Shown here: in pieces, positions 41,239 through 58,919 of the stretch
Position numbering within the stretch: position 1 is the first letter of the stretch
How the letters are laid out: every line of letters begins with the position of its first letter
Assembly: GCF_900199375.1 (NCBI RefSeq)
Contig: NZ_LT900217.1
Span: 1,736,001 to 1,800,000, forward strand
Source: Gordonibacter urolithinfaciens
GTDB lineage: Bacteria > Actinomycetota > Coriobacteriia > Coriobacteriales > Eggerthellaceae
Length of the DNA stretch: 64,000 bases
Direction: 5' to 3'
Position numbers and translations under genes: made by a program
The notes under the pieces: generated by a model
The model's database searches: none
What the model was told of the DNA's origin: nothing
What the model saw: only the letters and a program-made list of their open reading frames with translations

Positions 41239-43865
41239 TGCGCACCTGCCTTCCTCACATCGCAGAGGCATTCGTTCCATGCCATGTTCGTCGACCACGT
41301 GGCGCCGATGAAGTAGATCTCATGGATGGGATTGATGAACGGGTAGATGAGCGTGTTGTACGACGACCCGCCGGTATAGCGGGCCCACCAGCCCATCTCG
41401 AAGATACATTGCTTCGGATAGAGGCCGGGCTCTAGCACGAGCTTGCCCTTCACGTGGCCTCGGTCGTTGAACACATCCACCTCGTCGCCTTCGGCCAGGC
41501 CCTTCGCCATCGCGTCATCGGGGTTCATCCACACGCGGGGCAGCCCGTCTTGCAGCTCGAGCATCATGGGGTTGCTCGAATAGTTGGAGTGGACGCGATA
41601 CAGGCTGTTGCGCGTGAGGTAGTTGAAGGGGTACTTCTCACGGGCCGACGGGTCGAGGGCGTACTCGGTGTCTTCGAACAGAGGCTTCCACACGGGTAGC
41701 TGCTCGCCCTGCGCCAGGAACACGTCGTGGTCTTTGTAGAACTCCATGCGCCCGCTCGGCACGAAGTGGTCGGTCGAACCCGGCGCGTTCGGCAGCGATG
41801 GGGGCGGGAACGGCGTGCGGTTGTGGATCTGATCCCAGAAGGGAATCATCTTGTCCTCCGGGTTCGCATGATTCATCTTCACGGGACCGCGCCGCAGGTC
41901 TTCCACCGTGATGCCGGCCACCTTCTCGCCGCCGGTTGCGAGGAACTTCTCGAGTACGGCTTCGATCTGCTTCTCGGAGTCTTCCGGCGGGAAGTTGGGG
42001 AACTGCTCTCCCCAGGCCGGGTCGATGCGCCGGGCCAGCTCGGAGAATATCCAGATCTCGGGGCGCGCCTCGCCTGGCGGGTCCGCCGCCTTCTGCTGCA
42101 GTTGGATGTAGGGGTGCAGCGGCGTGGTGCACACGTCGGTCTTCTCGTACCAGGCGCAGCCGGGCAGCACGACGTCGGCGTACTCGACCGTGGTGGTGTG
42201 CAGGAAGTCGCAGGTCATGACAAACTCGAGCTCGCCGCTCTCCACGCGTTTGCGTAGCGCGTCGCAGACGGCGTGCTGGTCGAAGGGGTTCGCCCAGCCG
42301 GTGAGCAGGGCGTGGAAGCCGTTCTTCGGGTAGGGTGCCGACATCGTCTCGGTGGGGCCGTTCACGAAGTAGTGGTAGGGCGTTGCGGTTGCGTTCGCGT
42401 TCGGCGGCATGAACCACGAGGCCGGCTTGAAGCGCACCTTGTATTGGCCGATGTAGTCGGAAATGCCGCCGCCCAGCTTGCCAATGTTGCCGGTGAGTGC
42501 CGCCAGCAGGGTGAGCGCACGACCCTTGAGGTCGCCGTGATGGTACTGATGGGCGGAGCCGCCGAGGATGATGTGGGCTGGCTTGACGGTGGCCGTCAGT
42601 CGGGCCAGCCGCTCGATGGTCTCGGCGGGCACGTCGCTTATGTTCTGCGCCTTCGCGGGCGTGTAATCGCGCTCGAGCAACTCTTTGAGTAGCTGGAACG
42701 CGGGCTTCGCCTCCACGGTGGAACCGTCTTCGAGCGTGAGGGAGAACGTGCCCTCAAGCGCAGCTGTGGATGGCATTTCCAGCCGGGTAGGGCTGATAGC
42801 AGTGGGCGCTCCGTCCACAATGGCCACGTAGACCTCGCGCTTCTCGGGCGTTTCCTGCGGGCGTTCAAGCCCCTGCACGTCGGCCGCAAGGACGCGCTTG
42901 CCCGTGGCTGTGTTCACGAGCAGCGGCTGGTCAGTGTATGTTTTGATGAAATCTGCGTCGTAGAGTTCCTCGTCGATAATGACCTTCGCCATGGCGAGCG
43001 CAACGGCTGTGTCGCTGCCGGGCGCAAGCCGCACCCATTCGTCGGCCTTCGCCGCCGTGACCGTGTAGTTCGGGTCGAAGTAGATCACCTTGCCGCCGGC
43101 CTCCTGCGACCTTGTGAGAAAGTGCGAGTCGGGAAGACGGGTGGTCATGATGTTCGAGCCGAAGTTCAGGGTGAGGCGAGAGTCCTCCCACGCATAGCTT
43201 TCCAGCTCTTCGCATTGGCAGCCGAACGTTTCAGGGAAGAACATGGGCAGGTCGCCGTTCATCTCGTAGCCGGGAAAGTTCGTCCAACCGCTCATGTTTA
43301 CCAGGCGGATGAACGTTCCCTTATTGATGTAGTTGAGCGGCGGCACCTGGTAGTCGACGGCTATCGAGTCCGCACCGTAGTGCTCGGTTATCTCGCGGAT
43401 GCGCTTGGCGGCGAAGTTGAGTGCCTCGTCCCACGTGCATTCACGCAGTTGGCCGCCGTCTTTGTAGGGCGTCTCGCGAATCATGGGATGTAGCAGGCGG
43501 TCGTCGCCATACATCATGGTGTTGAATGTGGTGCCTTTCAGGCAGCCGCGCGGATTGTAGCCGTCGTTCTCGTAGTCGGCCGCTTGGATGAGCGTCTTTA
43601 CCTGTCCGTCGTACGTTGCGGCCACCATGCCGCAAGCGCCGGTGCAGTTGGGCGAGCAGGTTGATCGGACGTGGGTGAGGCCCATGCCGTCTGTTTCGTC
43701 CATCATACCGTCGCCCGTCATATCGTCGGCGAGCGCTTGCGCGAGTGGCGCCACGCTTCCGGCGGTGCAGGCGACGACGCCGGCTGCCGCTGTGGTTTTT
43801 AGAAATCCCCTCCGTGTTTGCTGCGGGCCACTTGGCCCGTGAGCGCGTGCGTTGTGCTCCTTCAT
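41235..43865 (-). CDS. Tat-exported molybdopterin oxidoreductase, catalytic subunit
   Basis: 876 residues. Tat signal TRRGFLKT (R18, R19) and a hydrophobic stretch to about residue 46. [4Fe-4S] ligands C70-x3-C74-x3-C78-x29-C108. The segment NGDLP (D205) lies where type II DMSO reductases (nitrate, selenate, chlorate, dimethyl-sulphide) carry their Asp metal ligand, and SNIMTTRLPDSHFL with FDPNYTVTAAKADEWVRLAP is close to that group too. The pterin-binding domain ends AEGDEVDVFNDRGHVKGKLV. Substrate unknown. A perfect inverted repeat (43911-43934) lies about 50 bp upstream. Operon with the iron-sulphur and NrfD-like genes. Confidence 0.92.
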   Translation of the reverse strand: MKEHNARAHGPSGPQQTRRGFLKTTAAAGVVACTAGSVAPLAQALADDMTGDGMMDETDGMGLTHVRSTCSPNCTGACGMVAATYDGQVKTLIQAADYENDGYNPRGCLKGTTFNTMMYGDDRLLHPMIRETPYKDGGQLRECTWDEALNFAAKRIREITEHYGADSIAVDYQVPPLNYINKGTFIRLVNMSGWTNFPGYEMNGDLPMFFPETFGCQCEELESYAWEDSRLTLNFGSNIMTTRLPDSHFLTRSQEAGGKVIYFDPNYTVTAAKADEWVRLAPGSDTAVALAMAKVIIDEELYDADFIKTYTDQPLLVNTATGKRVLAADVQGLERPQETPEKREVYVAIVDGAPTAISPTRLEMPSTAALEGTFSLTLEDGSTVEAKPAFQLLKELLERDYTPAKAQNISDVPAETIERLARLTATVKPAHIILGGSAHQYHHGDLKGRALTLLAALTGNIGKLGGGISDYIGQYKVRFKPASWFMPPNANATATPYHYFVNGPTETMSAPYPKNGFHALLTGWANPFDQHAVCDALRKRVESGELEFVMTCDFLHTTTVEYADVVLPGCAWYEKTDVCTTPLHPYIQLQQKAADPPGEARPEIWIFSELARRIDPAWGEQFPNFPPEDSEKQIEAVLEKFLATGGEKVAGITVEDLRRGPVKMNHANPEDKMIPFWDQIHNRTPFPPPSLPNAPGSTDHFVPSGRMEFYKDHDVFLAQGEQLPVWKPLFEDTEYALDPSAREKYPFNYLTRNSLYRVHSNYSSNPMMLELQDGLPRVWMNPDDAMAKGLAEGDEVDVFNDRGHVKGKLVLEPGLYPKQCIFEMGWWARYTGGSSYNTLIYPFINPIHEIYFIGATWSTNMAWNECLCDVRKAGAQ

Positions 43866-45764: not shown

Positions 45765-46184
45765 TCACTGCTGATTCTGCTCAAGCAGCTTCTTCAGCTC
45801 CGATGAGCTATGTATGCCCAGCTTCCTGTAAATTGAGTACTTGTGTGCTTTGGCGGTAGACGGGGAAATACCCAGCGCGTTGGAGATATACGTGGGGTTT
45901 CGCTCGTTCGCAAGGTAGCGGAGGATATGTCCCTCGCGTTCGGTCAGCCCGTATTCCCGTTCAAGTGCCAGAATGGCTTTCTTTCTCCTGCCGGGAATGT
46001 TCCCGCCGATAATATCGAACAAAGGCGTTCCCGACCGGGTGAACTCTATGGTATCTAAAGCATCGATCAGATCTACAAGAAGGTGTCCAAGCTGCTGCTT
46101 GCTTTGCGTTTCGGCGAGATAGCCGGGAATGGCATTATAAAGCAGGGCTGCCGCTTCGAGCACCTTCGTTTCGTTTTCGTCCAT
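45765..46184 (-). CDS. Small LuxR-type regulator without membrane or receiver domain
   Basis: 139 residues. An N-terminal helical part (1-70, LGHLLVDLIDALDTIEFTRS) has no receiver or PAS features. The C-terminal HTH reads YGLTEREGHILRYLANERNP, then TYISNALGISPSTAKAHKYS and IYRKLGIHSSSELKKLLEQ. A consensus TATAAT (46221-46226, reverse strand) precedes the start, and a perfect ATAGTAaTACTAT palindrome (46203-46215) lies between it and the start codon, as expected for autoregulation. The same half-sites recur in the control region of the two molybdoenzyme modules to the right, so this is their likely regulator. Confidence 0.85.
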   Translation of the reverse strand: MDENETKVLEAAALLYNAIPGYLAETQSKQQLGHLLVDLIDALDTIEFTRSGTPLFDIIGGNIPGRRKKAILALEREYGLTEREGHILRYLANERNPTYISNALGISPSTAKAHKYSIYRKLGIHSSSELKKLLEQNQQ

Positions 46185-46202
46185 AACACCGCACTTCCCT
46201 TG

Positions 46203-46226
46203 ATAGTAATACTATTGGGTATTATA
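46203..46226 (-). promoter_or_regulatory. Promoter and operator of the small LuxR gene
   Basis: TATAAT at 46226-46221 (reverse strand) and the palindrome ATAGTAATACTAT at 46203-46215, 19 bp before the start codon. Related ATAGTA/TACTAT elements occur at 49401-49640. Confidence 0.7.
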
Positions 46227-46276
46227 TCCATAGTGTAATCAAAGTAGATTGATCAACGATAAAGAATCTTTTGCCG

Positions 46277-46303
46277 ACAAAAGGGCCCTTTGAAAAGGGC
46301 CCC
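46277..46303 (-). terminator. Rho-independent terminator of left dehydroxylase-like module
   Basis: On the reverse strand GGGCCCTT-TTCA-AAGGGCCC followed by TTTTGTC, 35 bp past the stop of the small iron-sulphur gene. Confidence 0.82.
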
Positions 46304-46337
46304 GGAACATAACAGTTTAGTGCTGGCTTGCTTCTGC

Positions 46338-46670
46338 CTAGGGGATGAAGCACGTTACTTTCCTACCGTGATCGGCCATCGCCGTGGACAGATCATCGAG
46401 CGCGACGAGCTCTATGCATTGGGCTAGGCAATGATGAATGCAGGCAGGCTTTTTCCCGGCTTTCACACGGTCTTCGCACAGATCGCAAAGATCTGAGGGA
46501 ACAGGCACGTAATCCCAGAGCCAAGAGCCTTTCATCTTCGCAGGACCCAGTTCGTTGACCTTGATGCCCCACTCGTCAAGCGGGAGATCATGCTCTTTTC
46601 GGCATGAGACTTCGCACACATGACAGCCTGTGCAGTATTTATAATCTATCAGCAGTGCATATTCGCTCAT
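46338..46670 (-). CDS. Small 4Fe-4S partner protein of molybdoenzyme
   Basis: 110 residues starting MSEYALLIDYKYCTGCHVCE, 1 bp after the stop of the catalytic subunit. Cysteines: CTGCHVCEVSC, then CDLCEDRVKAGKKPACIHHC, so two [4Fe-4S] clusters. The landmarks HDLPLDEWGIKVNELGP and VPVPSDLCDLCEDRV match the small electron-transfer partners of cytosolic catechol-dehydroxylase-type enzymes (Gordonibacter and Eggerthella) as I remember them. A near relative lies at 52617. Confidence 0.88.
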   Translation of the reverse strand: MSEYALLIDYKYCTGCHVCEVSCRKEHDLPLDEWGIKVNELGPAKMKGSWLWDYVPVPSDLCDLCEDRVKAGKKPACIHHCLAQCIELVALDDLSTAMADHGRKVTCFIP

Positions 46671-46671
46671 G

Positions 46672-48999
46672 TTAGGCCTCCTTCCTCGTGGCAACGGGGC
46701 TTGCTGGATCAATGCCGATCGCGCCCTGCTCGGTGTCGGGGCTCAAGGTGCCGAGTGCGTCGAGCCCGTCCACCTTGTATATCTTGCATAGGACGTTTTT
46801 GAATGGAGCACCGAAGCCAATGCGGCCTATAGCACGATGTGGCACGAGACTGTTGATGTTGGACTTCCACACACCGCTGAGATTGGGTGCTTCTGGATCC
46901 TGTTCGGGGAACCACCATCCGTGCTGGGCGTGTATGACTCGCGGATCGATAATAGGGGTGACGTGCGCTTTCTCGATAGCTTTGCCGAGCGGGTTCTCGA
47001 TGCACACCCAATCGCCCTCCTCGATGCCGTATAGTGCTGCCGTTTCGGGGTTGATCTGCACAAGAGGGTACGGCATGAGGGCGCGCAAGGACGGCACTTG
47101 TCGGTGCTCGGAGTGGAAGGAAGTGGTTTCGCGTCCACCCGTGGTCATAATGAGCGGGTATTCGTTGGCAAGTTCGGGACGGCTGAACGGCGTGAGTGCA
47201 TTCTCTTCGAAGTAGGGAAGGGGATCCTCACCCCAATCCTCATAAAGGCTCGAGCATAGTTCGACCAAGCCTGTGGGGGTGTTGAAGCCCGGCTCGCCAT
47301 CTGGTCGCAGCAGGCCCTTCTCGTACTTGCGGTACTCGAATTCCTGCTGCACCCAGCCCAGCTCCTGCAGCTCCTCGAAGGTGATACCGAGCTGGGGCTT
47401 GATCTGCTCGGTGAAGAAATCGGCCACGTTGTCCCATGGCCATGCCTTCGGATTGAGCCGCTTGCCCACCATGAAATCTATTTCGAGGTCGGAGTGGCAA
47501 TCTCCCACCTCGACGCACTTGTTCATGGCCATGACCATGTGCGTGTTGCGCCCGAAGTGGGGAAGCACCACGCCGTCGTGCTCGGCGAACGTGGTCACTG
47601 GCAGGAACAGGTCGCACAGGCCCATGGCCGTAGGAGTCATGAAGACGTCTTGGCAGACGTTGAACTCCATCTTCTCGAGCGCCTTGAACCAGCGTTTGCC
47701 TTGCGCGTTGGTGGTGTTCGCTATGCCGTTGGTGGCGTAGAACCACGCCATCTTGAGCGGATAAGGCTCGTCGGTTTCCAGTGTGTCGAGGATGCAGTCG
47801 GGATGTGCTATGAGGTGTGCGGCGCGAAATCCCTGGTAACGGGGGTCGGTAATCTGCTTTTCGAGCATGCCCGGCGGGAGCTGCTGGGCGCATTCGTATC
47901 GCCACTTCCCCATGAAGCTCGCTGGCACGGCCAGTGTCACCCCTCCTGGCACGTCCAGATCGCCGAGGATGGCCGCGAGGATGAGCACGGTGTGGCCGGC
48001 CTGCACCCCATTTGCGTTCGTGTCTATGGCGAGCCCCCACATGAACGATGAAGGATGGTTCTCTGCGATGGCGCGTGAGGCGGCGGCGATGGTGGCGGCC
48101 GGAACCCAGGTGATCTCCTCCACCTTATCCAGCGGGTACTCGGCAGCACGCTCCTTGAGCTCATCGAAGCCGTAGCACCAGTTCTCAACGAAGTCGTGGT
48201 CGTAGAGATCTTCCTGTATCAGATAGTTGATCATACCCAGGCCGAGTGCGGCATCGGTGCCGGGACGGAGCTGCAGGTGGAAATCGGCATGAGCAGCCAT
48301 CCATGTGACACGCGGGTCTACCACCACGTAGCGCGATCCGCGCTTCATGAGGTCGATGAGCGTATGGCCGAAGAACCCGTCGGGGTTCGAGAACAGGGGA
48401 TCCTTTCCCCATAACACGATGTACTTCGGCACCTCGTAGCGCGGGTCGTCGTAGCGGTCGGGGAAGAAGGCTGCGTAGTCGAGCTCGGGATAGCCCGCCC
48501 CGAGTATGAAGTCGGCCACCGAGCAGCGTGGCCCATAGCACGAGTCGCCGCTCATGGGGAAGCACGAGTTCGGTGTGCCGAGGGCGGCATAGGCGAGCGG
48601 TGTTTTGTAGAGTGTGGCCTCGCGGCCCGTGCCCTGGAAGGCCACGATGGACTCGGCGCCCCAGTTCTCCTTGACGTAGCTCACCCGCTCTTCGATGATG
48701 TCGAGCGCCTCGTCCCAGGTGATGGGCTCCCAGGCGTCCTTCCCGCGATCTTCGCGTGCGCGCTTCAAAGGGCTCAGGACGCGCTTCTCGCTGTACATAT
48801 ACTCGGGAAGCGTGAGGCAGCGCACGCACAGGCGCCCTTGGGTGATGGGGTGGTCCGGATCTCCCTCTACGTCCACCACCTTGCCGTCTTTAACGGTCAG
48901 GTACATGCCGCACCCCACCGGGTGGTCGCCCGGCGGCGACCAGGCGCAGGTGCGGCACTTGACCACGCCGTCACCGCATTCGATTATCCGCTCTGACAT
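46672..48999 (-). CDS. Cytosolic molybdopterin enzyme, catechol-dehydroxylase-like (left module)
   Basis: 775 residues behind GAGAGGAG, with no Tat signal. [4Fe-4S] ligands C15-x2-C18-x11-C30-x27-C58 (followed by VRC). Likely metal ligand C154 in SGDSCYGPR, at the position of Cys/Sec in nitrate reductase Nap and formate dehydrogenase. Pterin motifs: WGKDPLFSNPDGFFGHTLID, VVDPRVTWMAAHADFHLQLR, RPGTDAALGLGMINYL and HGWWFPEQDPEAPNLSGVWK. This set resembles the acetylene hydratase / pyrogallol transhydroxylase / catechol dehydroxylase group of the DMSO reductase superfamily. The substrate is probably an aromatic or other non-metal acceptor; which one cannot be told. Middle gene of a three-gene operon. 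Confidence 0.88.
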   Translation of the reverse strand: MSERIIECGDGVVKCRTCAWSPPGDHPVGCGMYLTVKDGKVVDVEGDPDHPITQGRLCVRCLTLPEYMYSEKRVLSPLKRAREDRGKDAWEPITWDEALDIIEERVSYVKENWGAESIVAFQGTGREATLYKTPLAYAALGTPNSCFPMSGDSCYGPRCSVADFILGAGYPELDYAAFFPDRYDDPRYEVPKYIVLWGKDPLFSNPDGFFGHTLIDLMKRGSRYVVVDPRVTWMAAHADFHLQLRPGTDAALGLGMINYLIQEDLYDHDFVENWCYGFDELKERAAEYPLDKVEEITWVPAATIAAASRAIAENHPSSFMWGLAIDTNANGVQAGHTVLILAAILGDLDVPGGVTLAVPASFMGKWRYECAQQLPPGMLEKQITDPRYQGFRAAHLIAHPDCILDTLETDEPYPLKMAWFYATNGIANTTNAQGKRWFKALEKMEFNVCQDVFMTPTAMGLCDLFLPVTTFAEHDGVVLPHFGRNTHMVMAMNKCVEVGDCHSDLEIDFMVGKRLNPKAWPWDNVADFFTEQIKPQLGITFEELQELGWVQQEFEYRKYEKGLLRPDGEPGFNTPTGLVELCSSLYEDWGEDPLPYFEENALTPFSRPELANEYPLIMTTGGRETTSFHSEHRQVPSLRALMPYPLVQINPETAALYGIEEGDWVCIENPLGKAIEKAHVTPIIDPRVIHAQHGWWFPEQDPEAPNLSGVWKSNINSLVPHRAIGRIGFGAPFKNVLCKIYKVDGLDALGTLSPDTEQGAIGIDPASPVATRKEA

Positions 49000-49110
49000 A
49001 ACCTCTCCTCTCTCGTGCTGTTTATCGCGTGGTGGCACTTTTCCGGTTTCAAGGATGATTTCGCTGAGAAAGGCGACCTCTAAATGCCGGAAAGTGCCGG
49101 AGCCACGGGC

Positions 49111-49353
49111 CTACTTGCTGATGGGCGCTCCCGGCGCCTTCGGGGCAGAGGGGGCGTTGGGCATCCCATGAGCCGTTGGTGCGGGTACGACTGCCGGGGA
49201 AGCCGGTGCGGGCGCGTCGTCCTCGGCGCCTTCGGTCGGCGACTTGCAGAAGGGGCATTTCTTGGGCAGCTGCCCCGCTACGCGGTTGATGCGCTTGCCG
49301 CAAGACGGGCAGGTGGCGGGGGGCAGTTCGGTCTCGGCTGGTCTGAAGCACAT
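49111..49353 (-). CDS. Small zinc-ribbon protein of 'MCFRPA' type (left module)
   Basis: 80 residues. It begins MCFRPAETELPPATCPSCGK and has a second pair in KKCPFCKSP: C15-x2-C18 and C33-x2-C36, a four-cysteine zinc ribbon, plus Cys2. The rest (PAPASPAVVPAPTAHGMPNA) is Ala/Pro-rich and probably disordered. The ribosome site AAAGAGG is present. It is the first gene of the left module, 111 bp before the molybdoenzyme. A second protein with the same MCFRPA start is first in the right module. I know no function for the family; a maturation, chaperone or regulatory role is inference. Confidence 0.8.
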   Translation of the reverse strand: MCFRPAETELPPATCPSCGKRINRVAGQLPKKCPFCKSPTEGAEDDAPAPASPAVVPAPTAHGMPNAPSAPKAPGAPISK

Positions 49354-49707
49354 GGCGAACCTCTTTCTCTCAATGCTCTCGACGTGCGATGACTAAACCG
49401 AAATAGTATTAATTCTTTGCCATCGCCTTTCAATAAAATAATACGAAAGGGGTTAAATGAATAGTACTAAAAAGACTATGTACTATTCTATTTTAAGAAT
49501 ATGTTACAGGATTTTAAAGGAACACTTAGTTCGAAAAAAGCCTAATATGCAGGTAAAATATCTGTTAAATATAAACACACCAGTTTATTTATCCAAAAAA
49601 TAGTATAAATAGACACCTTGATAACTAATACTAAATAATATTATTTTGATGTCACAAACTAAACCAAATTGACCTAAGCCAAAAGTGGTTAGTTAAAGGA
49701 GGATCGT
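49354..49707. promoter_or_regulatory. Divergent AT-rich control region with repeated ATAGTA/TACTAT elements
   Basis: 354 bp. Elements: AAATAGTATTAATT (49401-49414); the perfect inverted pair GAATAGTAC (49459-49467) and GTACTATTC (49480-49488); AAATAGTATAAATAG (49598-49612); TAATACTA (49626-49633); and the palindrome AATAATATTATT (49635-49646). For the right module a TTGATA (49618-49623) and TATTAT (49639-49644) pair is a possible promoter with 15-bp spacing, and TAATACTA lies between them. For the left module a TATTAT (reverse of 49437-49442) lies just upstream of the first element. The pattern matches the small LuxR promoter at 46203. Confidence 0.72.
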
Positions 49708-49923
49708 ATGTGTTTTAGGCCTGCGGCGGTCGAAATGTCCAACAAGTGTCCGCAGTGCGGAGGCGAATGCGCGCTCAATCTCGAGCATTGCCCGCAATGC
49801 GGAGCGGCGCTCCCCAAGGTGCCGGCCATGCCCGGCATGCCCGGTGCCCCCGGTGTGCCCGTTCCGCCCGGGGCCCCGGCTCCGCCTGCGTCTCCATCAG
49901 CGCCCCGTGTTCCGCACCCATGA
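49708..49923 (+). CDS. Small zinc-ribbon protein of 'MCFRPA' type (right module)
   Basis: 71 residues behind AAAGGAGG. It begins MCFRPAAVEMSNKCPQCGGE, with Cys pairs C14-x2-C17 and C28-x2-C31 (LEHCPQCGAAL), and C21 extra. The tail is Pro/Met/Ala/Gly-rich with PGMPGAPGVPVPPGAP. The first six residues are identical to the protein of the left module at 49111, while the rest differs, so the start motif itself is probably under selection. It lies 125 bp before the molybdoenzyme gene in one operon. Function unknown. Confidence 0.8.
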   Translation: MCFRPAAVEMSNKCPQCGGECALNLEHCPQCGAALPKVPAMPGMPGAPGVPVPPGAPAPPASPSAPRVPHP

Positions 49924-50048
49924 GCGTTGCGCGTAGGCAACAGTCCCGTTTCTGTAAGCTTCCGGCCAACGCTCTGCCCGCCCGAGGTTTGAGCGTTGGC
50001 CGGCTGCCGAAAACCCAGATCGATGAATCGCCAAGAAAAGGAGGAGGA

Positions 50049-52580
50049 ATGGATTACCAAGAGTTCCTCGATTCGGTCGACCGCGAGGCCTACCACGAGG
50101 GGGAATGGCGGTGGCAGGAGGGCGAGTACACCGTCACCCGCACCAATCATTGGTCGCCCCCTGGCTGCCATAACGGGTGCGGCGTGCTGCTCTACGTCGA
50201 CCAAGAGGGCAGGCTTGCCCGCATCGAGGGCGACCCGCTGTCGCCCTTCAACAACGGCAAGCTTTGCATGCGCTGCCTCGACATGGTGGAGGCCGTAAAC
50301 CATCCCGACCGGTTGAAGTACCCTTTGCGTCGGGCCGGCAAGCGCGGCGAGAACAGATGGGAGCGCATCACGTGGGACGAGGCCTACGATGAGATCGTGG
50401 AGCGCGTGAACACCGTCAAGCGAGACTTCGGCTCCCACACCATCCTGTTCGTGCATGGCACGGGACGCAACATCGGCTGGCAGCTGCCGCTGTTCGCATC
50501 CACTGCCCTCGAGACGCCCAACGTCTGCAACTTCGGGTTCACTGGCTTTGCCTGTTACCTTCCGCGTATGATCGGCGCATCGGCGAAAATGGGAGAGATG
50601 ACCATCGCCGACGTGTCTGAAACGCATGAGATGCGCTATGCCGACCCATCCTTCCGCCGCCCCGATGTGATCATGGTTTGGGGTAACGAGCCTCTTAAGG
50701 CCAATGCCGACGGCTTCCTTGGCCACTGGATCGTCGAATGCATGCAGATGGGTACCCAGATCATCTCCATCGACCCGCGCCTAACCTGGCTCGGAGCTAA
50801 AGCCGCGTACTGGTTGCAGGTGCGCCCCGGAACCGACGGCGCGCTGGGCATAGCGATGCTGAACACCGTCATCAACGAGGATATGGTCGACCATGAGTTC
50901 ATCGACAGCTGGTGTTACGGCTACGAGCAGCTCGTCGAATCGGTGCAGGGCAAGGATGCTGATTGGGCCGCCGAGATATGCGGCGTACCGGCGGACGACA
51001 TACGCGGCGCAGCCCGCTTATACGCTACGGCGGAAAGCGCGTCCATCCAGTGGGGCCTCGCGTTCGAGCAGCAACTGTCCGCGTTGGGCGTCACCGCGGC
51101 GGCGTGCGATCTCATGGGTGTTACCGGCAACATCGACAATCCCGGAGGGAACCTGCTCATCAAGTGCGCGTTCGATATCGAGAAGCGCTACGGTTTGGGT
51201 GACTTCAAAATCCCGCGCGAAAACTATGCAGGCAAGCTTACTTTGTCGGCGGGCATCGAATCATCCGATATCGTGGCCTGTGCGTCCTCAGATGCCCTAC
51301 TGCACGCCGTGGAGACAGGCGAGCCCTTCATGCCCCAGATTATCTGGCTGCAAAGTGCCAACCCGCTCTCCTGCTCGGGCATGGACGCACCGCGCATGTA
51401 CGAGGCCATGAACAAGATACCCTACTGCGTGGTGGCCGACCCCTATATGACGCCGACCGCCGTGGCTCATGCCGATATCGTGCTGCCGGTTGCCATGAGC
51501 TGCGAGCGCAACTCCGTGCGCACCTGGTGGACGCCCGCCCGGTCCATCTCCAAGTGCGCGAGCTACTACGAAGCAAAGTCCGATGAGCAGATCATCCTCG
51601 ATCTGGGTCGCCGGCTGAAGCCCGAGAACTGGCCCTGGAAAGACGACAGGGAGTTGGCCACGTGGTACCTCACCGACCAGTACGCCGAGGGCGGCACGCG
51701 CTACGAGGGTGACTTCGAGGAGCTGCAGGAGCGCGGCGGCTACAAGTACGATCCGTGGGATGCCGAGTACTACAAGTACCAGAAGGGCATGTGTCGTCCC
51801 GACGGCCAGCCGGGCTTCGACACGGCAACGGGTCGTTTCGAGTTCTGGAGCTGGGGGTACAACCATTGGGGAGTCGATCCGATGCCCTACCACATTGAGC
51901 CGAAGGATAGCCCAGTATCCACGCCCGAGAAGCTGGCAGAGTACCCGTTCATCGCCACGTCGGGTGGAAGGTCCTACGAGTTCTTCCACTCCGAGCACCG
52001 TCAACTGGAAACCATGCGCGAGTTCCATCCTTGGCCGCTTGTGACCATTCATCCCGAGGCCGCGGCTGAATACGGCATCGAGGATGGCGACTGGGTGTGG
52101 ATCGAGACCACCCATGGCCGATGCCGCCAGAAGGCGTTCCTCTTCCCCGGCATCAAGAAGGACACCATTCATATGGAGCACGCTTGGTGGTTCCCCGAGC
52201 AAGAAGCCGCAGAGCCCAGCCTGTACGGCACGTTCGACTCAAACATCAATAACATGGCGCTCAACTTCGAAACGGGGCAAGGCGGCATCGGTTCCGGTAT
52301 CAAGAGCTTCTTGGCAAAGATCTACCCCTACGTCGAGGGAGACCAGATGCCCGGCGAGAAGGTCACCCGCGAGGGCGGCTGGGGCGACTACCTGCCCGGC
52401 GTTATGGCGGGTGACAAAGAATCGGCAGAGAGGCAGGCTGCCGAGGGCAACAGCGCCTTGCTCGCCCAGATCGAGGCCGCTCGGCGCGCCAAGGAGATGA
52501 AGGTAGAGGACGCCGACATGCAGGGCCGCAACGCGCTCATCTACGCGAAAGAGCACGCCGACGGCCTGCAGGATGCCTGA
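50049..52580 (+). CDS. Cytosolic molybdopterin enzyme, catechol-dehydroxylase-like (right module)
   Basis: 843 residues behind GGAGGAGG, with no signal peptide. The N-terminal cluster has C40-x3-C44-x28-C73 (and C76); the first cysteine of the usual four is replaced, and H34 in TRTNHWSPPGCHNGC is a possible substitute ligand. The likely metal ligand is C169 in TGFACYLPR. Pterin regions: WGNEPLKANADGFLGHWIVE, SIDPRLTWLGAKAAYWLQVR, and HAWWFPEQEAAEPSLYGTFD. It is a relative of the left-module enzyme but has a longer N-terminus and a C-terminal extension of about 70 residues rich in Glu/Ala. Followed at 36 bp by its 4Fe-4S partner. Confidence 0.88.
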   Translation: MDYQEFLDSVDREAYHEGEWRWQEGEYTVTRTNHWSPPGCHNGCGVLLYVDQEGRLARIEGDPLSPFNNGKLCMRCLDMVEAVNHPDRLKYPLRRAGKRGENRWERITWDEAYDEIVERVNTVKRDFGSHTILFVHGTGRNIGWQLPLFASTALETPNVCNFGFTGFACYLPRMIGASAKMGEMTIADVSETHEMRYADPSFRRPDVIMVWGNEPLKANADGFLGHWIVECMQMGTQIISIDPRLTWLGAKAAYWLQVRPGTDGALGIAMLNTVINEDMVDHEFIDSWCYGYEQLVESVQGKDADWAAEICGVPADDIRGAARLYATAESASIQWGLAFEQQLSALGVTAAACDLMGVTGNIDNPGGNLLIKCAFDIEKRYGLGDFKIPRENYAGKLTLSAGIESSDIVACASSDALLHAVETGEPFMPQIIWLQSANPLSCSGMDAPRMYEAMNKIPYCVVADPYMTPTAVAHADIVLPVAMSCERNSVRTWWTPARSISKCASYYEAKSDEQIILDLGRRLKPENWPWKDDRELATWYLTDQYAEGGTRYEGDFEELQERGGYKYDPWDAEYYKYQKGMCRPDGQPGFDTATGRFEFWSWGYNHWGVDPMPYHIEPKDSPVSTPEKLAEYPFIATSGGRSYEFFHSEHRQLETMREFHPWPLVTIHPEAAAEYGIEDGDWVWIETTHGRCRQKAFLFPGIKKDTIHMEHAWWFPEQEAAEPSLYGTFDSNINNMALNFETGQGGIGSGIKSFLAKIYPYVEGDQMPGEKVTREGGWGDYLPGVMAGDKESAERQAAEGNSALLAQIEAARRAKEMKVEDADMQGRNALIYAKEHADGLQDA

Positions 52581-52616
52581 CCGCCCAAACGACCCAAGAA
52601 AAGGAGGCGAACGACC

Positions 52617-52967
52617 GTGACTAAGGCGATTCTCGTCAACTACGACTACTGCACGGGCTGCCACTCATGCGAGGTGGCCTGCAAAAAGGAGCGTGGCCTG
52701 CCGAAAGGCGAGTTCGGCATCAAGGTGTGCGAGGTGGGGCCGTTCCAGTACAGCAGGGACCAGGGGCTGAAGGGCGTATGGGAATGGACGTATATGCCCG
52801 TCCTGACGCAGGCATGCAATCTGTGCGCCGACCGTACGAAGGAGGGCAAGATGCCCATGTGCGTGCAGCATTGCCAGGCATGGTGTCTGTACTACGGTGA
52901 GGCGGAGGACCTGGTCAAGAAAATGGACGGCAAGACCCGTTGGACGCTTTCGACCACCAAGGAGTAA
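52617..52967 (+). CDS. Small 4Fe-4S partner protein (right module)
   Basis: 116 residues with a GTG start behind AAGGAGG. Cysteine runs CTGCHSCEVAC and CNLCADRTKEGKMPMCVQHC give two [4Fe-4S] clusters. It has the same layout as the left-module partner at 46338, with KKERGLPKGEFGIKVCEVGP replacing the equivalent stretch. It should pass electrons to the 843-residue molybdoenzyme. It is followed after 73 bp by the MmgE/PrpD gene. Confidence 0.88.
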   Translation: MTKAILVNYDYCTGCHSCEVACKKERGLPKGEFGIKVCEVGPFQYSRDQGLKGVWEWTYMPVLTQACNLCADRTKEGKMPMCVQHCQAWCLYYGEAEDLVKKMDGKTRWTLSTTKE

Positions 52968-53040
52968 GGGGGCCGGGCGGCTTAGACCGAGAGGGGAACC
53001 ATGCGCGAAGTCGCCCGGAAACCATTGAAAAGGGGGTTCC

Positions 53041-54432
53041 ATGAACATGACCGACGAAGTTTGCGCGCACGTCGCGGCCGCAGACTACGCGATACTCGAC
53101 GATTTCACCGTCGGGCGAGTCAAGACCCGTGTGCTCGACGCGGTGGGCGTCATAGCTGCCGGGGTGCACGCGCCTCGTTGCGACGATTTGTTCAACCTGC
53201 TCAAAAGCTATGGAACAGCGCCTCAAAGCACGGCGTTTTTTCGCGGCGAGCTTATGGGCGCTCCGCAAGCTGCCATGGTGAACAGCTTCGCCATGAGATC
53301 CTACGATTTCGAGGCCATCGAGGCCGAGAACGAGAATCGCAAGAGCAGTGCCGCTCACATCAGCGGTACGACGGTGCCCACCGCCTTCGCCGCCGCAGAG
53401 CGCGTACATGCGAGCGGCAGGGAGTTCCTCACGGCTTTGGTGGTGGGCGATGACGTTGCCGCGCGTCTGGGGGCGGCATCTGGCTTCGATGTGTATGGAG
53501 GCTGGGATAACACCAACACCATCAACGGGTTGGGCGCTACTGTTGTCGCCGGCAAGTTGGGCGGCCTCAACGAGCAGGAGCTCAACAACGCGCTCGGCCT
53601 GAGCCTGAACATGCTGGGCGGGTCGATGGACAACATCAACTACAAGACGCTCGCGTTCAAGCTCCCCATGGCGCTTGCTGCCCGCAACGCCATCTTCTCG
53701 GCCGACTTTGCCGCCCGTGGCATGACGGCCACCCACGACGCCATCGGGGGCAAGAAAGGGTATTTCTTCCTGTTCTGCGGCGAGAAGCAGCAGCCGGAGC
53801 TGCTGTGCAAGGACTTGGGACGCGTTTTCTACGGCGATGTGGTCATCAAGCCGTGGTCGGCCTGCCGCGCCACGCACCCCTCGATCGATGCCTGCATGAA
53901 GATCGTCGAAGCGCACGAATTCGATCCAACGCAAGTGGAGAGCGTAACCATTCATACCACGCCCCGCACAGCTCAAGGGTTCGTGGGGCAGCCGTTCGAG
54001 GTAGGCGAAGAGCCCCAGGTGAGCGGAGCTTTCAGCATCATCTACACGGCGGCAGTCGCCCTTGTGGAAAAGGCTGTGCGCCCCGAGCACATGAACCGGG
54101 AGGCCATGGAGGATCCCGCGCTGAAAAGCATGATAGCGAAGATCGCCATCGATCCCTCCTTGCCGCCCGACGAGTACCAGACGGCGGAGGTAGACGTGGT
54201 CATGCGGGGCGGCACGTCTTACCACGCACGCTGCGACGTGCCCAAAGGCGATATCTACCGCAGCCCCCTGACCGAAGGGGAGGTTCTCGACAAATTCTAC
54301 CGGAACATCGAGTTTTCTCGCACGCTGCCGCACGAGGCTGCCGCACAGGTGGTTGAGATGGTTACGCATCTTGAAGAGCTGGACGACATCGGGGAGCTCG
54401 TGGCGTTCATGGAAGAGAGGAGAATGAAATGA
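53041..54432 (+). CDS. MmgE/PrpD family protein
   Basis: 463 residues. The fold of 2-methylcitrate dehydratase/cis-aconitate decarboxylase relatives is recognisable from LDAVGVIAAGVHAPRCDDLF, FRGELMGAPQAAMVNSFAMR, SYDFEAIEAENENRKSSAAH (a region near the active site), GWDNTNTINGLGATVVAGKL, and the C-terminal PWSACRATHPSIDACMKIVE. The highly conserved His of the family appears in AAHISGT. Members dehydrate or decarboxylate tricarboxylic-type acids, or act on other carboxylates. Here, behind the molybdoenzyme and coupled to a permease (ATGA overlap), it probably processes the same substrate or its product. Confidence 0.9.
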   Translation: MNMTDEVCAHVAAADYAILDDFTVGRVKTRVLDAVGVIAAGVHAPRCDDLFNLLKSYGTAPQSTAFFRGELMGAPQAAMVNSFAMRSYDFEAIEAENENRKSSAAHISGTTVPTAFAAAERVHASGREFLTALVVGDDVAARLGAASGFDVYGGWDNTNTINGLGATVVAGKLGGLNEQELNNALGLSLNMLGGSMDNINYKTLAFKLPMALAARNAIFSADFAARGMTATHDAIGGKKGYFFLFCGEKQQPELLCKDLGRVFYGDVVIKPWSACRATHPSIDACMKIVEAHEFDPTQVESVTIHTTPRTAQGFVGQPFEVGEEPQVSGAFSIIYTAAVALVEKAVRPEHMNREAMEDPALKSMIAKIAIDPSLPPDEYQTAEVDVVMRGGTSYHARCDVPKGDIYRSPLTEGEVLDKFYRNIEFSRTLPHEAAAQVVEMVTHLEELDDIGELVAFMEERRMK

Positions 54433-55715
54433 CCGCAGAACAGAAAGCTACCGCGAAGAAGGCGCTCGGCATCACGGTCCAGATAGCCGCGCTGCTCGTT
54501 ATCACGCTGCAGTATGCGAAGTCGTTCTCGACGCCGGCCATGTCGGCCATTGGAGCGGCATACGCCCCTGCGGGCGTCGATTCGCTCATGCTTAAGAACA
54601 TCGAAGGGCTGCCCTCGCTCATGGCTATTGTAGGCGCGTTCGCCGTGGGCATCCTCGAGCGCTATATGAAAAAGAAGACCATGCTTATCATTGCCATGGC
54701 ATGCACCCTCGTCGGTGGGGTGGTTGCTGGTCTCATGCCGGAGACCATCGAGGGCTTCTACGGCATATTGGCGTGCCGCGTGGTGCTGGGTTTCGGCCGC
54801 GGCATGATATTCCCTATGGCGTCATCGTTCATAGCCGACTTGTTCGAGGGCAGGCAGCGCGACCGCCTCATGAGTTTCAAAACGGCAGTGGGAGGTCTCT
54901 CGGGTTCGGTGTTCCAGCTGATCGGCGGTTTCCTGGCCGTCATGTCGTGGCGCTATTCCTTCATCGGCTACCTGTTCATCATCCCCATCGTGGCGATGAT
55001 TGTGCTCTGGCTTCCGGAGCCCGACGTAAAGCCGGCAGGGATGACGGCCGACGGCAAGCGTGGTAACGCGCTCAAATCCATCACGGTGGCCGCATGGATC
55101 GTCATCCTCTTGGCAGGCGTGTGGAACTTTTTCCAGTTCTCGTACTTCACCAACATCTCCTTGTGCATCAAGGAGGCGGGTTTGGGCGACACGGGCTTCG
55201 CTGGCATCATCAGCTCCACGCAGACGCTTGCCGCCGCGGTGGGCGCCATCTGCTACGGTGCGTTTCTTAAGGGTCGCCTTCGGGGATTCGACCTGCCCAT
55301 CGCTCTACTCGGCGAGGCCGTGGGCTTCTGGATTCTCACGCACATCGTCTCGGTGCCGGGCTACTACGCAGGTGCCATTGTATACGGGCTCGCGTTCGGC
55401 ATGTTCAACCCTGCCCTCATCCTGCAGATCGTGAAGGTTCTGCCCAAGGAAGGTGCCACGTTGGGGCTCTCGCTTTTGGCTGCGGCACAGAATCTGTGCC
55501 AGTACTTCTCCGCTTACGTGCTTGCGTTCTTCGCCGGTCTCATGGGCGTGGCGGCTACGGGCCAATTTGCCGGTTGGAACGTGGCATGGCCGCTTGCGAC
55601 AGCTATGGCCGTGCTTGTGGCCGTTATCATCGTTATCACTAAAGCGAAGCATCCCGAGTTGATCGCCGGCCTGAAAGAACCGGGTAAGCAAGCCGATATC
55701 GAGAAAACCGTCTAG
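54429..55715 (+). CDS. MFS transporter (right catabolic module)
   Basis: 428 residues, twelve helices, start overlapping the MmgE/PrpD stop. The MFS pattern is visible in GAFAVGILERYMKKKTMLII (loop 2-3), GRGMIFPMASSFIADLFEGR and RDRLMSFKTAVGG. A charged loop (PDVKPAGMTADGKRGNAL) separates the two halves. The coupling with the MmgE/PrpD gene suggests uptake of its substrate, probably an organic or aromatic acid. The C-terminus (KEPGKQADIEKTV) is cytoplasmic. Confidence 0.9.
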   Translation: MTAEQKATAKKALGITVQIAALLVITLQYAKSFSTPAMSAIGAAYAPAGVDSLMLKNIEGLPSLMAIVGAFAVGILERYMKKKTMLIIAMACTLVGGVVAGLMPETIEGFYGILACRVVLGFGRGMIFPMASSFIADLFEGRQRDRLMSFKTAVGGLSGSVFQLIGGFLAVMSWRYSFIGYLFIIPIVAMIVLWLPEPDVKPAGMTADGKRGNALKSITVAAWIVILLAGVWNFFQFSYFTNISLCIKEAGLGDTGFAGIISSTQTLAAAVGAICYGAFLKGRLRGFDLPIALLGEAVGFWILTHIVSVPGYYAGAIVYGLAFGMFNPALILQIVKVLPKEGATLGLSLLAAAQNLCQYFSAYVLAFFAGLMGVAATGQFAGWNVAWPLATAMAVLVAVIIVITKAKHPELIAGLKEPGKQADIEKTV

Positions 55716-55804
55716 TTGGGGGAACGGCACGTAAAAGATGGTTGTACTGGATTCGAGTGATCGGGGCCGGCGCCCGCCGGCCTCTTCTGCCGAAGGGGGA
55801 TCGC

Positions 55805-57091
55805 ATGCTAGTTCGCGATGGCAAGCTTCTAGGGAGAGTACCGTATGCATTCGTGATCGTGGGGTGTTGCTGCCTTCTCCAGGCGTTTGGCATGGGCCTT
55901 ATCTTGAACTGTGGAAGTCTGTTCTATGTTCCTGTCTGCGAGGATATGGGGTTTCTTAGATCGGAGATTGCCACGTACATGACGGGCTATTTCGTCGGAA
56001 CGACGCTGGTAACGCCCTTGGCCGGAAAGCTTCTCTCACGGTATGACATACGCGTTGTCATGGCATTGGCCATCGTGGTGCTCTCGTTCTCCGTCGGTGT
56101 CATGTCAACCTACACGGCGATATGGCAGTGGCAGGCATCAGGGTTTCTCGTCGGGGCGGCTGGTTCGTGCATATTCGTGCTGCCTTCCGCGACGTTGGTG
56201 GGGAACTGGTTTGTCAAACGGCGCGGTATGGTATACGGCATTGTCATGGCTTGTTCGAGCGTATCGGCGGCAGTGTTCTCGCAGGTTCTGCACGGCATCA
56301 TAGTGGCCGACGGATGGCGAGAGGCTTATTTGTTCGTCGGTGTCGCCTCGTTTTGCGTGATCTTTCCCTGTGCCCTGCTGCTGAGAAGGAATCCGTCCGA
56401 CGTGGGTGCCGTCCCCTATGGGCTCATGCCCAATGAGGGAGTTGGAAAAGCGTCAGTTGTACGAGGTGTTGCGGTGAAGGTAGCCGTGGTCTCCTTGGCG
56501 TTTTGGTGCTTGTTCGTGTTCGCCGGTATTGCGTCGTTCATTCATGGAGGCATCGAGCAGCATCTTCCCGGTTACGTCGAGTCTGTCGGGTTCACCTCGT
56601 CATTCGCCGCAGCTGTGGTATCGGCCCAGTCCGTCGGATCGGTGGTCGACAAACTGGTCATGGGCTGGCTGAACGACAAGCTGGGGGTGCAGCGAACCAC
56701 CATCATCGAGCTTGTGCTCATCGTGCTGGGCATTTTAGGGTTCGTTCTGCTGCACAACCCGGTTTTCCTCATCGTGTCCGCTGTTTTGTTCGGCGTGCAG
56801 GATTCGCTTATGTCGGTGAGCCTTCCTCTGCTCATTCGAGAGATATTCGGTTCTAAGAACTACACGCAGATCCACGCGTGGATACGCACCGGCGTGGGGG
56901 TGTTCGGATCGTTTTCGGGCATTGTCGTCGGTGCGGCATATGATTTCGCAGGCACCTTTGTCCCCGCTTTTCTGGGATTGATGGTCATCTGCTTTTTGGC
57001 CATGGCCTGCATCCGCGTTGCCTACCGAACAAGCAAGGGATTGGTTTGGGAAGCGACGGGCTGCGTATCGGATGGAGACGCCAAGAAGTAA
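55805..57091 (+). CDS. MFS transporter, oxalate/formate antiporter-like
   Basis: 428 residues from ATG 55805 (GGGGGA before it); the ORF is open further upstream but not helix-forming. Twelve helices; the OFA-like layout shows in LQAFGMGLILNCGSLFYVPV and SATLVGNWFVKRRGMVYGIV, typical of monocarboxylate-type MFS carriers, and GWLNDKLGVQRTTIIELVLI in the second half. It is 89 bp after the previous MFS gene on the same strand, so it could be the export partner of an exchange system or a second uptake route. A strong terminator follows. Confidence 0.9.
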   Translation: MLVRDGKLLGRVPYAFVIVGCCCLLQAFGMGLILNCGSLFYVPVCEDMGFLRSEIATYMTGYFVGTTLVTPLAGKLLSRYDIRVVMALAIVVLSFSVGVMSTYTAIWQWQASGFLVGAAGSCIFVLPSATLVGNWFVKRRGMVYGIVMACSSVSAAVFSQVLHGIIVADGWREAYLFVGVASFCVIFPCALLLRRNPSDVGAVPYGLMPNEGVGKASVVRGVAVKVAVVSLAFWCLFVFAGIASFIHGGIEQHLPGYVESVGFTSSFAAAVVSAQSVGSVVDKLVMGWLNDKLGVQRTTIIELVLIVLGILGFVLLHNPVFLIVSAVLFGVQDSLMSVSLPLLIREIFGSKNYTQIHAWIRTGVGVFGSFSGIVVGAAYDFAGTFVPAFLGLMVICFLAMACIRVAYRTSKGLVWEATGCVSDGDAKK

Positions 57092-57248: not shown

Positions 57249-58919
57249 CTACCGCTCGTACACCACTTCGCCGCCCAGGATGGTCGTCGCCACCTTGGTA
57301 GTGCGGTAATCCTCCACGTTGCCGGCGATGAAGTCGTTGTCGAACAGGCACATATCGGCGAAGTTGCCCACCTCCACCGAGCCCATCTTGTCGTCGTCGT
57401 GGCTGAAGAAGGCCGCGTTCTTCGTCCACATGATGAGGGCCTGGATGGGCGTGACCTTCGACTCGTCGCCCTTGGAGAGCGTCTTGCCCGTGGTCTCGTC
57501 GACTCGGGTAATGGCGTAGTACATGCCCAGCAGAGGGTCGGGCGTCACGACGGGGCAATCCGAGCTGCCGCCGGCGATGATGCCGTTTGAGAACATGAGG
57601 CCCGGCGACTGGAAGCGCTCGACCTGCTCGGGCCAGAACAGCGGCTCCTCGCCCATCTGGGACACGAGGGTGGGCTGCAGGCACACGCCCACGCCCAGCT
57701 CCTTCATGATGGGCCACTGGTCCTCGTAGGGCAGCTGGTAGTGGATCAGGTAGTGGCGCAGCTCCTTCACCGGGCGGATCTTGTTGGCCTCCTGGAAGGC
57801 GTGCAGCGCGCGGTCCTCGCTCGCGTCGCCGATGGTGTGGATGCCGAACTGCCAGCCGAGCTCGGTCGCCTTGCACACCAGCGCGTCGATCTCCTCCTGC
57901 GTGTAGATGGTGTCGCCGTAGAAGCCGGGGCGCTGGCGGTACTCGCGGCGGCTCATGGCGGCGGTGAACGCGGCCGTGATGCCGTCGAGCGTGACCTTGC
58001 AGCCGTTGAGCTTCAGCATCTCGTCGCCGAAGCCGGTGACGCAGTCCATCTCCTCCAGGCGGCGCAGGTTGTCCTCGAAGGAGCCGAACTGCGGGTCCAG
58101 GTAGAACATGAGGTTCGCGCGGTAGGTGAGCCTGTTCTGTTTCCTTGCTTCGTTGTACGCGCGCATCTGCTTGTAGTTGAGGTTCGCGTCGATGGCGCTG
58201 GTGATGCCGAAGGAGTTCAGGCGCTGCCCTATGAGTTCGAGGCTCTGGAGGTGCTGCTCTTCAGTCAGCGGGGGCTTGGCCGCAAACATTGGCATGAGGG
58301 CTGCGTTCTCGTACAGCATGCCGTCGAGCTCGCCGTCGTCGTAGTGGCCGATCTCGCCGCCTTCGGGCTGCGGGGTGTCCTTCGTATAGCCGACTTCTTC
58401 GAGGGCGCGCGAGTTCGCGGCCACCGTATGGGCCGACATGTGCAGAAGGATGAGCGGGTTGTCGGGCGCGACCTCGTCGAGCTCGCGGCGCGTGATGACC
58501 TCCTGGCTGTCCTCCCAGATGAGCTCGTTCCAGCCGTCGCCCTCGATCCATTCGCCCGCAGGAGTGCTGGCGACCTTCTCCTTCAGGGCGTCGAGGATGG
58601 CCTGGCGGCTGGTCACGCCGTTGAAATCGAGGTTGAGCATCTGCTCGCCGGTCCACTTGCAGTGCATGTGGCATTCGACGAAGCCGGGCGTGAGGATCTT
58701 GCCGGAGGCGTCGATGACCTCGGTGTGCTCGCCGATGAACTGCTGGACGTCGGTGGCCGTGCCCACGGCGATGACCTTGCCGTCCTTGGCGGCCACGCCG
58801 CCGTCCTCGATGATGGGGAAGTCCGTCTTGCCTTCCTTCACCTCGTCGCACGTGATGGCGACGGTGTAGATCTTCGGATGCTGGATGACCAGGTCTGCCT
58901 CGGGATACCAAGTGCTCAT
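57249..58919 (-). CDS. Metal-dependent amidohydrolase (YtcJ/NfdA type)
   Basis: 556 residues, with AAGGAG upstream. The amidohydrolase motifs are KILTPGFVECHMHCKW (paired metal His), LGWQFGIHTIGDASEDRALH (metal His), GGSSDCPVVTPDPLLGMYYA (metal Asp region) and the closing GNFADMCLFDNDFIAGNVED, typical of the YtcJ/NfdA group, which hydrolyse N-acyl or N-formyl compounds. No signal peptide. It is divergent from an unrecognised membrane protein across 354 bp, and the two may share a substrate. Confidence 0.9.
   Translation of the reverse strand: MSTWYPEADLVIQHPKIYTVAITCDEVKEGKTDFPIIEDGGVAAKDGKVIAVGTATDVQQFIGEHTEVIDASGKILTPGFVECHMHCKWTGEQMLNLDFNGVTSRQAILDALKEKVASTPAGEWIEGDGWNELIWEDSQEVITRRELDEVAPDNPLILLHMSAHTVAANSRALEEVGYTKDTPQPEGGEIGHYDDGELDGMLYENAALMPMFAAKPPLTEEQHLQSLELIGQRLNSFGITSAIDANLNYKQMRAYNEARKQNRLTYRANLMFYLDPQFGSFEDNLRRLEEMDCVTGFGDEMLKLNGCKVTLDGITAAFTAAMSRREYRQRPGFYGDTIYTQEEIDALVCKATELGWQFGIHTIGDASEDRALHAFQEANKIRPVKELRHYLIHYQLPYEDQWPIMKELGVGVCLQPTLVSQMGEEPLFWPEQVERFQSPGLMFSNGIIAGGSSDCPVVTPDPLLGMYYAITRVDETTGKTLSKGDESKVTPIQALIMWTKNAAFFSHDDDKMGSVEVGNFADMCLFDNDFIAGNVEDYRTTKVATTILGGEVVYER

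Follow-up and report, generated by a model that had tools for sequence, protein, structure and literature searches.

A conserved ten-gene unit of Gordonibacter urolithinfaciens encodes two divergent cytosolic molybdoenzymes of the catechol dehydroxylase family

Introduction

Catechol dehydroxylases are molybdenum enzymes that remove hydroxyl groups from catechols of plant and host origin. Those of the Gordonibacter type are described in two reports as enzymes that lack a twin-arginine translocation (Tat) signal, act with a small 4Fe-4S partner and are encoded beside a major facilitator superfamily (MFS) transporter and a LuxR-type regulator (PMC7028382; PMC12771579). They are smaller than the Eggerthella lenta type. 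In the mechanism that the same reports propose, the departing hydroxyl becomes bound to molybdenum as the one next to it tautomerises (PMC7028382, PMC12771579). Published work counts more than 30 uncharacterised family members per Gordonibacter or Ellagibacter strain (PMC12771579) and, in one published network, list no substrate for 121 of 126 dehydroxylase clusters (PMC11585353). Here we analyse a 64,000-nucleotide stretch of the Gordonibacter urolithinfaciens genome, referred to throughout as the window (contig NZ_LT900217.1; G000:C1:1736001-1800000 in our notation, where G000 is the source genome, a single contig of 3.29 Mb). Its subject is a pair of head-to-head gene modules, each encoding a small zinc-ribbon protein that we assign to an MCFRP family, a molybdenum enzyme (Mo1 or Mo2) and a 4Fe-4S partner (FeS1 or FeS2). 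In what follows, L-numbers denote loci and G-numbers denote genomes.

By their phylogenetic placement, Mo1 and Mo2 belong to the Gordonibacter-type catechol dehydroxylase family, and the label "dehydroxylating" is given to them on the strength of that clade membership. We lean towards reading the locus as one substrate-inducible regulon serving two cytosolic reductive dehydroxylations.

Results

Two divergent modules encode members of the catechol dehydroxylase family

A sequence-only reading of the window had described two divergent three-gene modules flanking a 354-bp region, with large subunits of 775 and 843 residues that carry no Tat signal and resemble the acetylene hydratase, pyrogallol transhydroxylase and catechol dehydroxylase group. 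All six open reading frames (ORFs) are present in that arrangement, each start preceded by a putative ribosome-binding site (read by eye). The start codons of the two MCFRP genes are indeed 354 bp apart, the stretch between them having a G+C fraction of 0.31, and inspection of both enzyme N-termini reveals no twin-arginine signal. The modules are real, but the conserved unit is larger and comprises ten genes, running from LuxR, FeS1, Mo1 and MCFRP1 on one side to MCFRP2, Mo2, FeS2, MmgE/PrpD, MFS1 and MFS2 on the other (45765-57091; Table 1).

Both enzymes contain the Pfam molybdopterin oxidoreductase, dinucleotide-binding and Fe4S4 domains, and neither reaches any NCBIfam curated cut-off; the whole genome holds 69 Pfam molybdopterin-domain matches. 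The top solved-structure match is acetylene hydratase (2e7z; 290 bits for Mo1 and 250 bits for Mo2), followed by a formate dehydrogenase-type chain (169 and 153 bits). Pyrogallol hydroxytransferase AthL (PDB 4v4c) scores weakly (46 and 53 bits).

We placed the enzymes in two quick trees assessed by the Shimodaira-Hasegawa-like approximate likelihood-ratio test (SH-aLRT), without bootstrap and with AthL in neither. Tree 1 contains 39 enzymes of the source genome and three solved chains, the 19 more distant of 58 candidate rows having been omitted; tree 2, built under a mixture model, contains 38 rows after ten were dropped and six from other genomes were added. Mo1 and Mo2 fall within a 28-row clade of own-genome enzymes with SH-aLRT values of 100 in tree 1 and 99 in tree 2, where the rows are partly different. 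Neither enzyme groups with formate dehydrogenase or thiosulphate/polysulphide reductase, the unrelated placement that the sequence-only reading had named as contradicting it. Of the composite group it proposed, the catechol dehydroxylase part is borne out by this clade and the pyrogallol part is not: membership among pyrogallol transhydroxylases is rejected on the AthL scores relative to those for acetylene hydratase. Mo1 and Mo2 are not acetylene hydratases by this placement either, 2e7z lying outside the 28-row clade. Its partner there (SH-aLRT 100) is L185, another enzyme of the same genome (G000:C1:about 1374755-1376948(-)).

Within the clade, Mo1 and Mo2 share 39% identity and occupy separate subclades, which rules out a recent tandem duplication. 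Mo2 groups with L020 and L035 and is 99% identical to a relative in Gordonibacter pamelaeae 7-10-1-b, the nearest named contig. Mo1 groups with L043 in tree 1 and with rows from other genomes in tree 2, where L043 falls in the next group.

To place characterised dehydroxylases in the source genome, we relied on gene neighbourhood and on how similar candidate pairs are to each other instead of on deposited sequences. L038 and L040 share one cluster (G000:C1:3005375-3018051) that also encodes an Amidohydro_2 protein, an Fe-S partner protein and, by eye, MFS-looking proteins. Because this make-up is the one described for eam, a cluster in which two dehydroxylases serve two steps (PMC12771579), this is the likely eam cluster of the genome, and L038 and L040 are likely Eadh1/2. 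The neighbouring L022 and L023 are 73.5% identical, which fits the 74% given for the co-located (+)-Eldh1 and (+)-Eldh2 of Gordonibacter in PMC11887054, so that these two are likely (+)-Eldh1/2. Both pairs lie in the 28-row clade. We also considered whether the unit is itself the ellagic acid cluster and judged this unlikely, as two dehydroxylase genes flank the Amidohydro_2 protein at 3005375-3018051 instead. Against that rejection, the best of three Amidohydro_2 matches in the genome is at 1814634-1815395(-), ~21 kb beyond the unit and outside the window.

The subclade of Mo2 also holds the likely (+)-Eldh1/2 genes, and Gordonibacter is known to have dehydroxylases selective for enantiomer or site (PMC11887054). 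Both points suit a complementary pair that, like the lignan enzymes, divides the work between stereoisomers or between two rings of the same molecule. We regard this alternative as possible and rather doubtful, since identity within the site-selective pair published for Gordonibacter is 74%, compared to 39% for Mo1 and Mo2. Low identity alone does not exclude such pairing, because an enantio-pair of E. lenta is reported there to be 52% identical (PMC11887054).

The unit is conserved in other genera, and its control region holds clustered TARTAYTA sites

We read conservation at 15 named loci encoding Mo2 relatives. All ten genes are present at L095, L096 and L097, on contigs of Raoultibacter and Adlercreutzia, and a LuxR relative occupies the same place at these three loci and at L103 and L108. 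Mo1 stands head-to-head with Mo2 at six of the 15, which, together with the Pfam molybdopterin-domain matches (E 5.6e-26 for Mo1 and 1.9e-26 for Mo2), indicates that the module arrangement goes beyond chance. L108 stops inside Mo2, MCFRP2 and LuxR are not detectable at L102, and L099, L101, L104 and L105 begin inside Mo2 and cannot be judged for Mo1. Across 119 family genomes, divergent orthologues of Mo1 and Mo2 lie ~1.1 kb apart in five (G199, G172, G107, G152 and G145). Since four of the five seem to be the same records as L095, L096, L097 and L103, G107 is the sole addition. Three genomes of the same genus (G067, G103 and G189) lack both orthologues, their best matches reaching at most 59% for Mo1 and 64% for Mo2.

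The motif TARTAYTA occurs five times in the window, always inside the unit: four of the sites fall in the 354-bp region and the fifth lies upstream of LuxR. When the 354-bp region was shuffled 500 times with dinucleotide counts preserved, it contained 0.16 sites on average and never as many as the four observed. The longer form WTAGTAYTAW is found at two places in the unit and at one other place in the genome, ~190 bp upstream of the ORF for the molybdenum enzyme L179. No Rfam family reaches threshold in the 354-bp region; the whole window yields one match, a tRNA.

In the regulon that we propose, the MFS proteins would import a catechol- or pyrogallol-type aromatic, and the soluble LuxR-type protein would activate the two divergent promoters by way of the recurring TARTAYTA-like sites. 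Each of Mo1 and Mo2 would take off a different hydroxyl, either in successive steps on one scaffold or on two close substrates; the use of two such enzymes for two steps within a single cluster has a precedent in eam. Catalysis would occur at a bis-molybdopterin guanine dinucleotide (bis-MGD) molybdenum with a cysteine ligand, by the hydroxyl-on-molybdenum mechanism that we adopt from clade membership, with FeS1 or FeS2 supplying electrons through the N-terminal 4Fe-4S cluster. The MCFRP zinc ribbons, encoded by the first gene of each operon, would serve as accessory proteins. The MmgE/PrpD protein may decarboxylate, isomerise or dehydrate the same compound; its nearest solved relatives are bacterial IRG1/cis-aconitate decarboxylase and iminodisuccinate epimerase (at most 90 bits), which weakly suggests a carboxylate-bearing compound.

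Several observations weigh against this proposal. Strict TARTAYTA sites are few in the corresponding regions elsewhere (three at L096 from Raoultibacter, one each at L103 and L108, and none at L097), and none occurs in the four LuxR upstream stretches tested among these loci. Across the source genome, WTAGTAYTAW gives four matches at its three places compared to six for the reversed control, so that only the clustering of the motif is notable and not its genome-wide count. The regulator, at 139 residues and soluble, is unlike the published regulators of the dehydroxylase family, which mostly have 10-12 transmembrane helices. The unit at L103 lacks MmgE, L106 is arranged differently, Mo2-type genes occur without Mo1 at L098, L100, L107 and L109, and in G120 both orthologues are present about 107 kb apart.

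Such solitary Mo2-type genes, along with the low identity and different subclades of Mo1 and Mo2, are also what would be expected of two independent dehydroxylases that act on unrelated substrates and merely have a bidirectional control region in common. We consider this unlikely: the head-to-head order is kept at the six loci, with four of the other nine unjudgeable, it recurs in G107, which matches no named locus, and TARTAYTA sites are present towards either end of the control region.

Cofactor ligands are retained in Mo1 and Mo2 and partly lost in relatives of Mo1

A cysteine is present in the molybdenum-ligand loop of all 28 clade rows. The N-terminal Fe-S motif typical of the clade reads PGC-x3/4-C and LCxRC. 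Mo1 has Asp in place of the first of its cysteines, as do 18 Mo1-orthologue rows from about 13 genomes (equal-score rows being counted as one gene fetched twice). The Asp rows carry a Cys seven residues earlier, or six in some more distant rows, and Mo1 thus still has four cysteines available. Both cluster motifs are intact in FeS1 and in FeS2.

The Asp substitution, the existence of a close Mo1 subfamily without any of the four Fe-S cysteines and the rank of acetylene hydratase as nearest solved relative together favor a redox-neutral hydratase or hydroxyl-transfer enzyme over a reductive dehydroxylase. For Mo1 itself we find this improbable, given that the upstream Cys restores its count of four and that FeS1 is intact in both motifs, and we retain reductive dehydroxylation as its predicted reaction.

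The subfamily in question is represented in the source genome by L056 (G000:C1:755612-757942(-)), which has none of the four N-terminal Fe-S cysteines. In its small partner, near 755229-755597(-), the cysteines are gone from the two cluster motifs and one or two Cys remain in all. Among 30 loci opened, the enzyme Fe-S motif is lost at 18 (17 genomes, 14 genus codes and five family codes); the partner was recovered at 15 of these and has lost its cysteines in each, as it has at 13 of 13 loci in a separate set. Cluster-free relatives of L056 comprise L189-L199, L209, L216-L230, L234, L235 and L242. Because they keep the molybdenum-ligand Cys while losing the Fe-S cysteines, they are likely redox-neutral enzymes. 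Nine more distant Asp-type relatives (L231-L233 and L236-L241; family code f5) have the fourth Fe-S cysteine changed to Ala, as in GRLCIRAL, and may possibly be intermediates towards cluster loss.

MCFRP zinc-ribbon proteins accompany the molybdenum enzymes

A DNA pattern for the MCFRP start has 18 matches in the source genome and none for its reversed control. Seventeen of the 18 ORFs encode a zinc-ribbon-like CxxC...CxxC core, the exception being 591801-592013. Seventeen matches also lie at most 5 kb from a molybdopterin match (background 18%), and eight at most 1 kb away (background 6.5%). In G107, 20 of 21 MCFRP sites have a molybdenum enzyme match in the fetched surroundings, up to about 4 kb distant. 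In an alignment of 11 sequences, the columns without variation are MCFRP, the four cysteines of the core and a single glycine.

Full-length profile matches, defined as beginning at position 1 with at least 35 bits, occur in 12 of 197 class genomes. Over the 20 family genomes common to both searches, they are found in all ten with close Mo1 relatives, compared to one of ten without (G087). Two broader tallies were set aside. The DNA pattern in 61 of 120 order genomes is too high a count: of 29 such loci opened, a zinc ribbon of the MCFRP type is encoded at six only, and 21 are ORFs under 60 residues without one. The class-wide profile tally of 184 of 197 genomes consists mostly of matches that start inside the zinc ribbon. 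Searches of the open-licence literature returned no description of the family.

Tentatively, and with more doubt than confidence, we suggest that MCFRP proteins form a new type of accessory factor, dedicated to and required by the cytosolic molybdenum enzymes of Gordonibacter and relatives. They could handle metal or sulfur, insert the cofactor or help to assemble the complex, and might take the place of the TorD-like chaperone and other accessory proteins that serve exported E. lenta enzymes. This role is a first guess, prompted by the need of E. lenta enzymes for accessory proteins (PMC11887054). Against it, the likely Eldh enzymes, which have an MCFRP gene close by in the source genome, are active when expressed in E. 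lenta, from constructs that may or may not have included MCFRP.

The fourth codon of the family, for Arg, is AGA in 17 of the 18 source-genome copies and AGG in one; these make up 2.9% and 5.7%, respectively, of 2906 Arg codons in 58 molybdenum enzyme open frames of the genome. Codon 4 is likewise mostly AGA or AGG in other genomes. A DNA-level constraint on all the first MCFRP codons is weakened as an explanation, since the third positions of the Cys and Phe codons vary in other genomes. Two dehydroxylase-type enzymes at G000:C1:16120-18432 and 2454331-2456625 are 84% identical, apparently through duplication of a cluster, and each lies near another molybdenum enzyme and an identical MCFRP protein (at 18759 and 2460423). 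Two other small Cys-rich proteins, at G000:C1:677075-677284(-) and 2397112-2397438(-), begin with the unusual N-termini MGNCHYCMNCGRC... and MPGGCWICNPLCGKC..., contain a zinc-ribbon-like part and are encoded a few kb from molybdenum enzymes.

Features of the unit and neighbouring genes

Just outside the unit, window positions 41235-43865(-) encode a separate molybdopterin enzyme that does carry a twin-arginine signal, next to a protein with 4Fe-4S-type motifs (40531-41298(-)) and a likely membrane protein (39264-40526(-)). Beyond the second MFS gene, an amidohydrolase-like protein with weak NCBIfam matches only (window 57249-59249(-)) probably falls outside the conserved unit, as it is seen at L095 only among the 15 named loci.

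Table 1 Features of the ten-gene unit, in window coordinates
Feature	Position	Strand	Evidence and remarks
LuxR-type (GerE) regulator, soluble, 139 aa	45765..46184	-	PF00196 E 3.8e-12; candidate regulator of the unit
Fifth TARTAYTA site	46207..46214	.	Upstream of LuxR gene
FeS1, small two-cluster 4Fe-4S partner of Mo1, 110 aa	46338..46670	-	Fer4_11 E 2.4e-5 (just under Pfam cut-off); cysteine motifs read; conserved
Mo1, predicted cytosolic bis-MGD catalytic subunit, 775 aa	46672..48999	-	PF00384/PF01568/PF04879; 2e7z 290 bits; clade
MCFRP1, small zinc-ribbon protein, Pro/Ala-rich tail, 80 aa	49111..49353	-	Weak rubredoxin-like match below cut-off; family alignment
Divergent control region, 354 bp	49354..49707	.	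Four TARTAYTA sites: 49404, 49462, 49626, 49636
MCFRP2, small zinc-ribbon protein, Pro/Ala-rich tail, 71 aa	49708..49923	+	Family alignment; without Pfam match
Mo2, predicted cytosolic bis-MGD catalytic subunit, 843 aa	50049..52580	+	Pfam; 2e7z 250 bits; clade
FeS2, small two-cluster 4Fe-4S partner of Mo2, 116 aa, GTG start	52617..52967	+	Fer4_11 above cut-off
MmgE/PrpD family protein, 463 aa	53041..54432	+	PF03972 E 4.4e-42; present at 6/15 named loci
MFS transporter 1, 428 aa	54429..55715	+	PF07690; conserved
MFS transporter 2	55742..57091	+	PF07690; conserved; ORF begins at TTG, real start probably further in

Discussion

The enzyme family was already known. To it we add a pairing of two members in a conserved unit of ten genes, the family of MCFRP proteins and the relatives of Mo1 that lack the cluster. 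A unit kept across genera narrows the search for a substrate, as one inducer should switch on both enzymes, the transporters and MmgE/PrpD. MCFRP proteins may have been overlooked as a component of these systems, and they could be relevant to the difficulty of expressing such enzymes elsewhere. The cluster-free relatives would offer a test of whether this fold supports redox-neutral aromatic chemistry.

That Mo1 or Mo2 is an enzyme already characterised, with the 3,4-dihydroxyphenylacetic acid (DOPAC) dehydroxylase Dodh as the candidate, is very improbable: Dodh (WP_041239388.1) is a G. pamelaeae enzyme that shares the cytosolic type (PMC7028382), and DOPAC raised four molybdenum enzyme genes in the first of two published RNA sequencing experiments, but in the second it strongly induced one such gene and only two others, less than 2.5-fold, unlike what a shared control region would give, while the likely Eadh1/2 and Eldh1/2 genes map elsewhere in the source genome, Gs Vadh has a LysR regulator and Gp Hcdh a membrane-bound LuxR.

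Among solved enzymes, acetylene hydratase is the nearest relative and has a Cys at the aligned metal-ligand place, but it differs in clade, where it accompanies L185. AthL belongs with Mo1 and Mo2 to the dimethyl sulfoxide reductase superfamily. Its large subunit is not known to carry an N-terminal Fe-S cluster, whereas Mo1 and Mo2 keep the cysteines for one and match AthL only at the low scores given above.

The closest likeness is to the Gordonibacter type, whose catalytic-subunit clade, smaller size without a Tat signal, small 4Fe-4S partner and nearby MFS gene are all found here. As in Dodh, Gp Hcdh, Gs Vadh, (+)-Eldh1/2 and Eadh1/2/3, a predicted cytosolic bis-MGD subunit is combined with a 4Fe-4S partner, and MFS and regulator genes lie nearby; the likely Eadh1/2 and Eldh1/2 genes share a common clade with Mo1 and Mo2. 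Unlike in those systems, two divergent modules here surround one control region, accompanied by a soluble LuxR-type protein, MmgE/PrpD and two MCFRP genes. Where eam carries the decarboxylase Eah, this unit carries the MmgE/PrpD protein in its stead.

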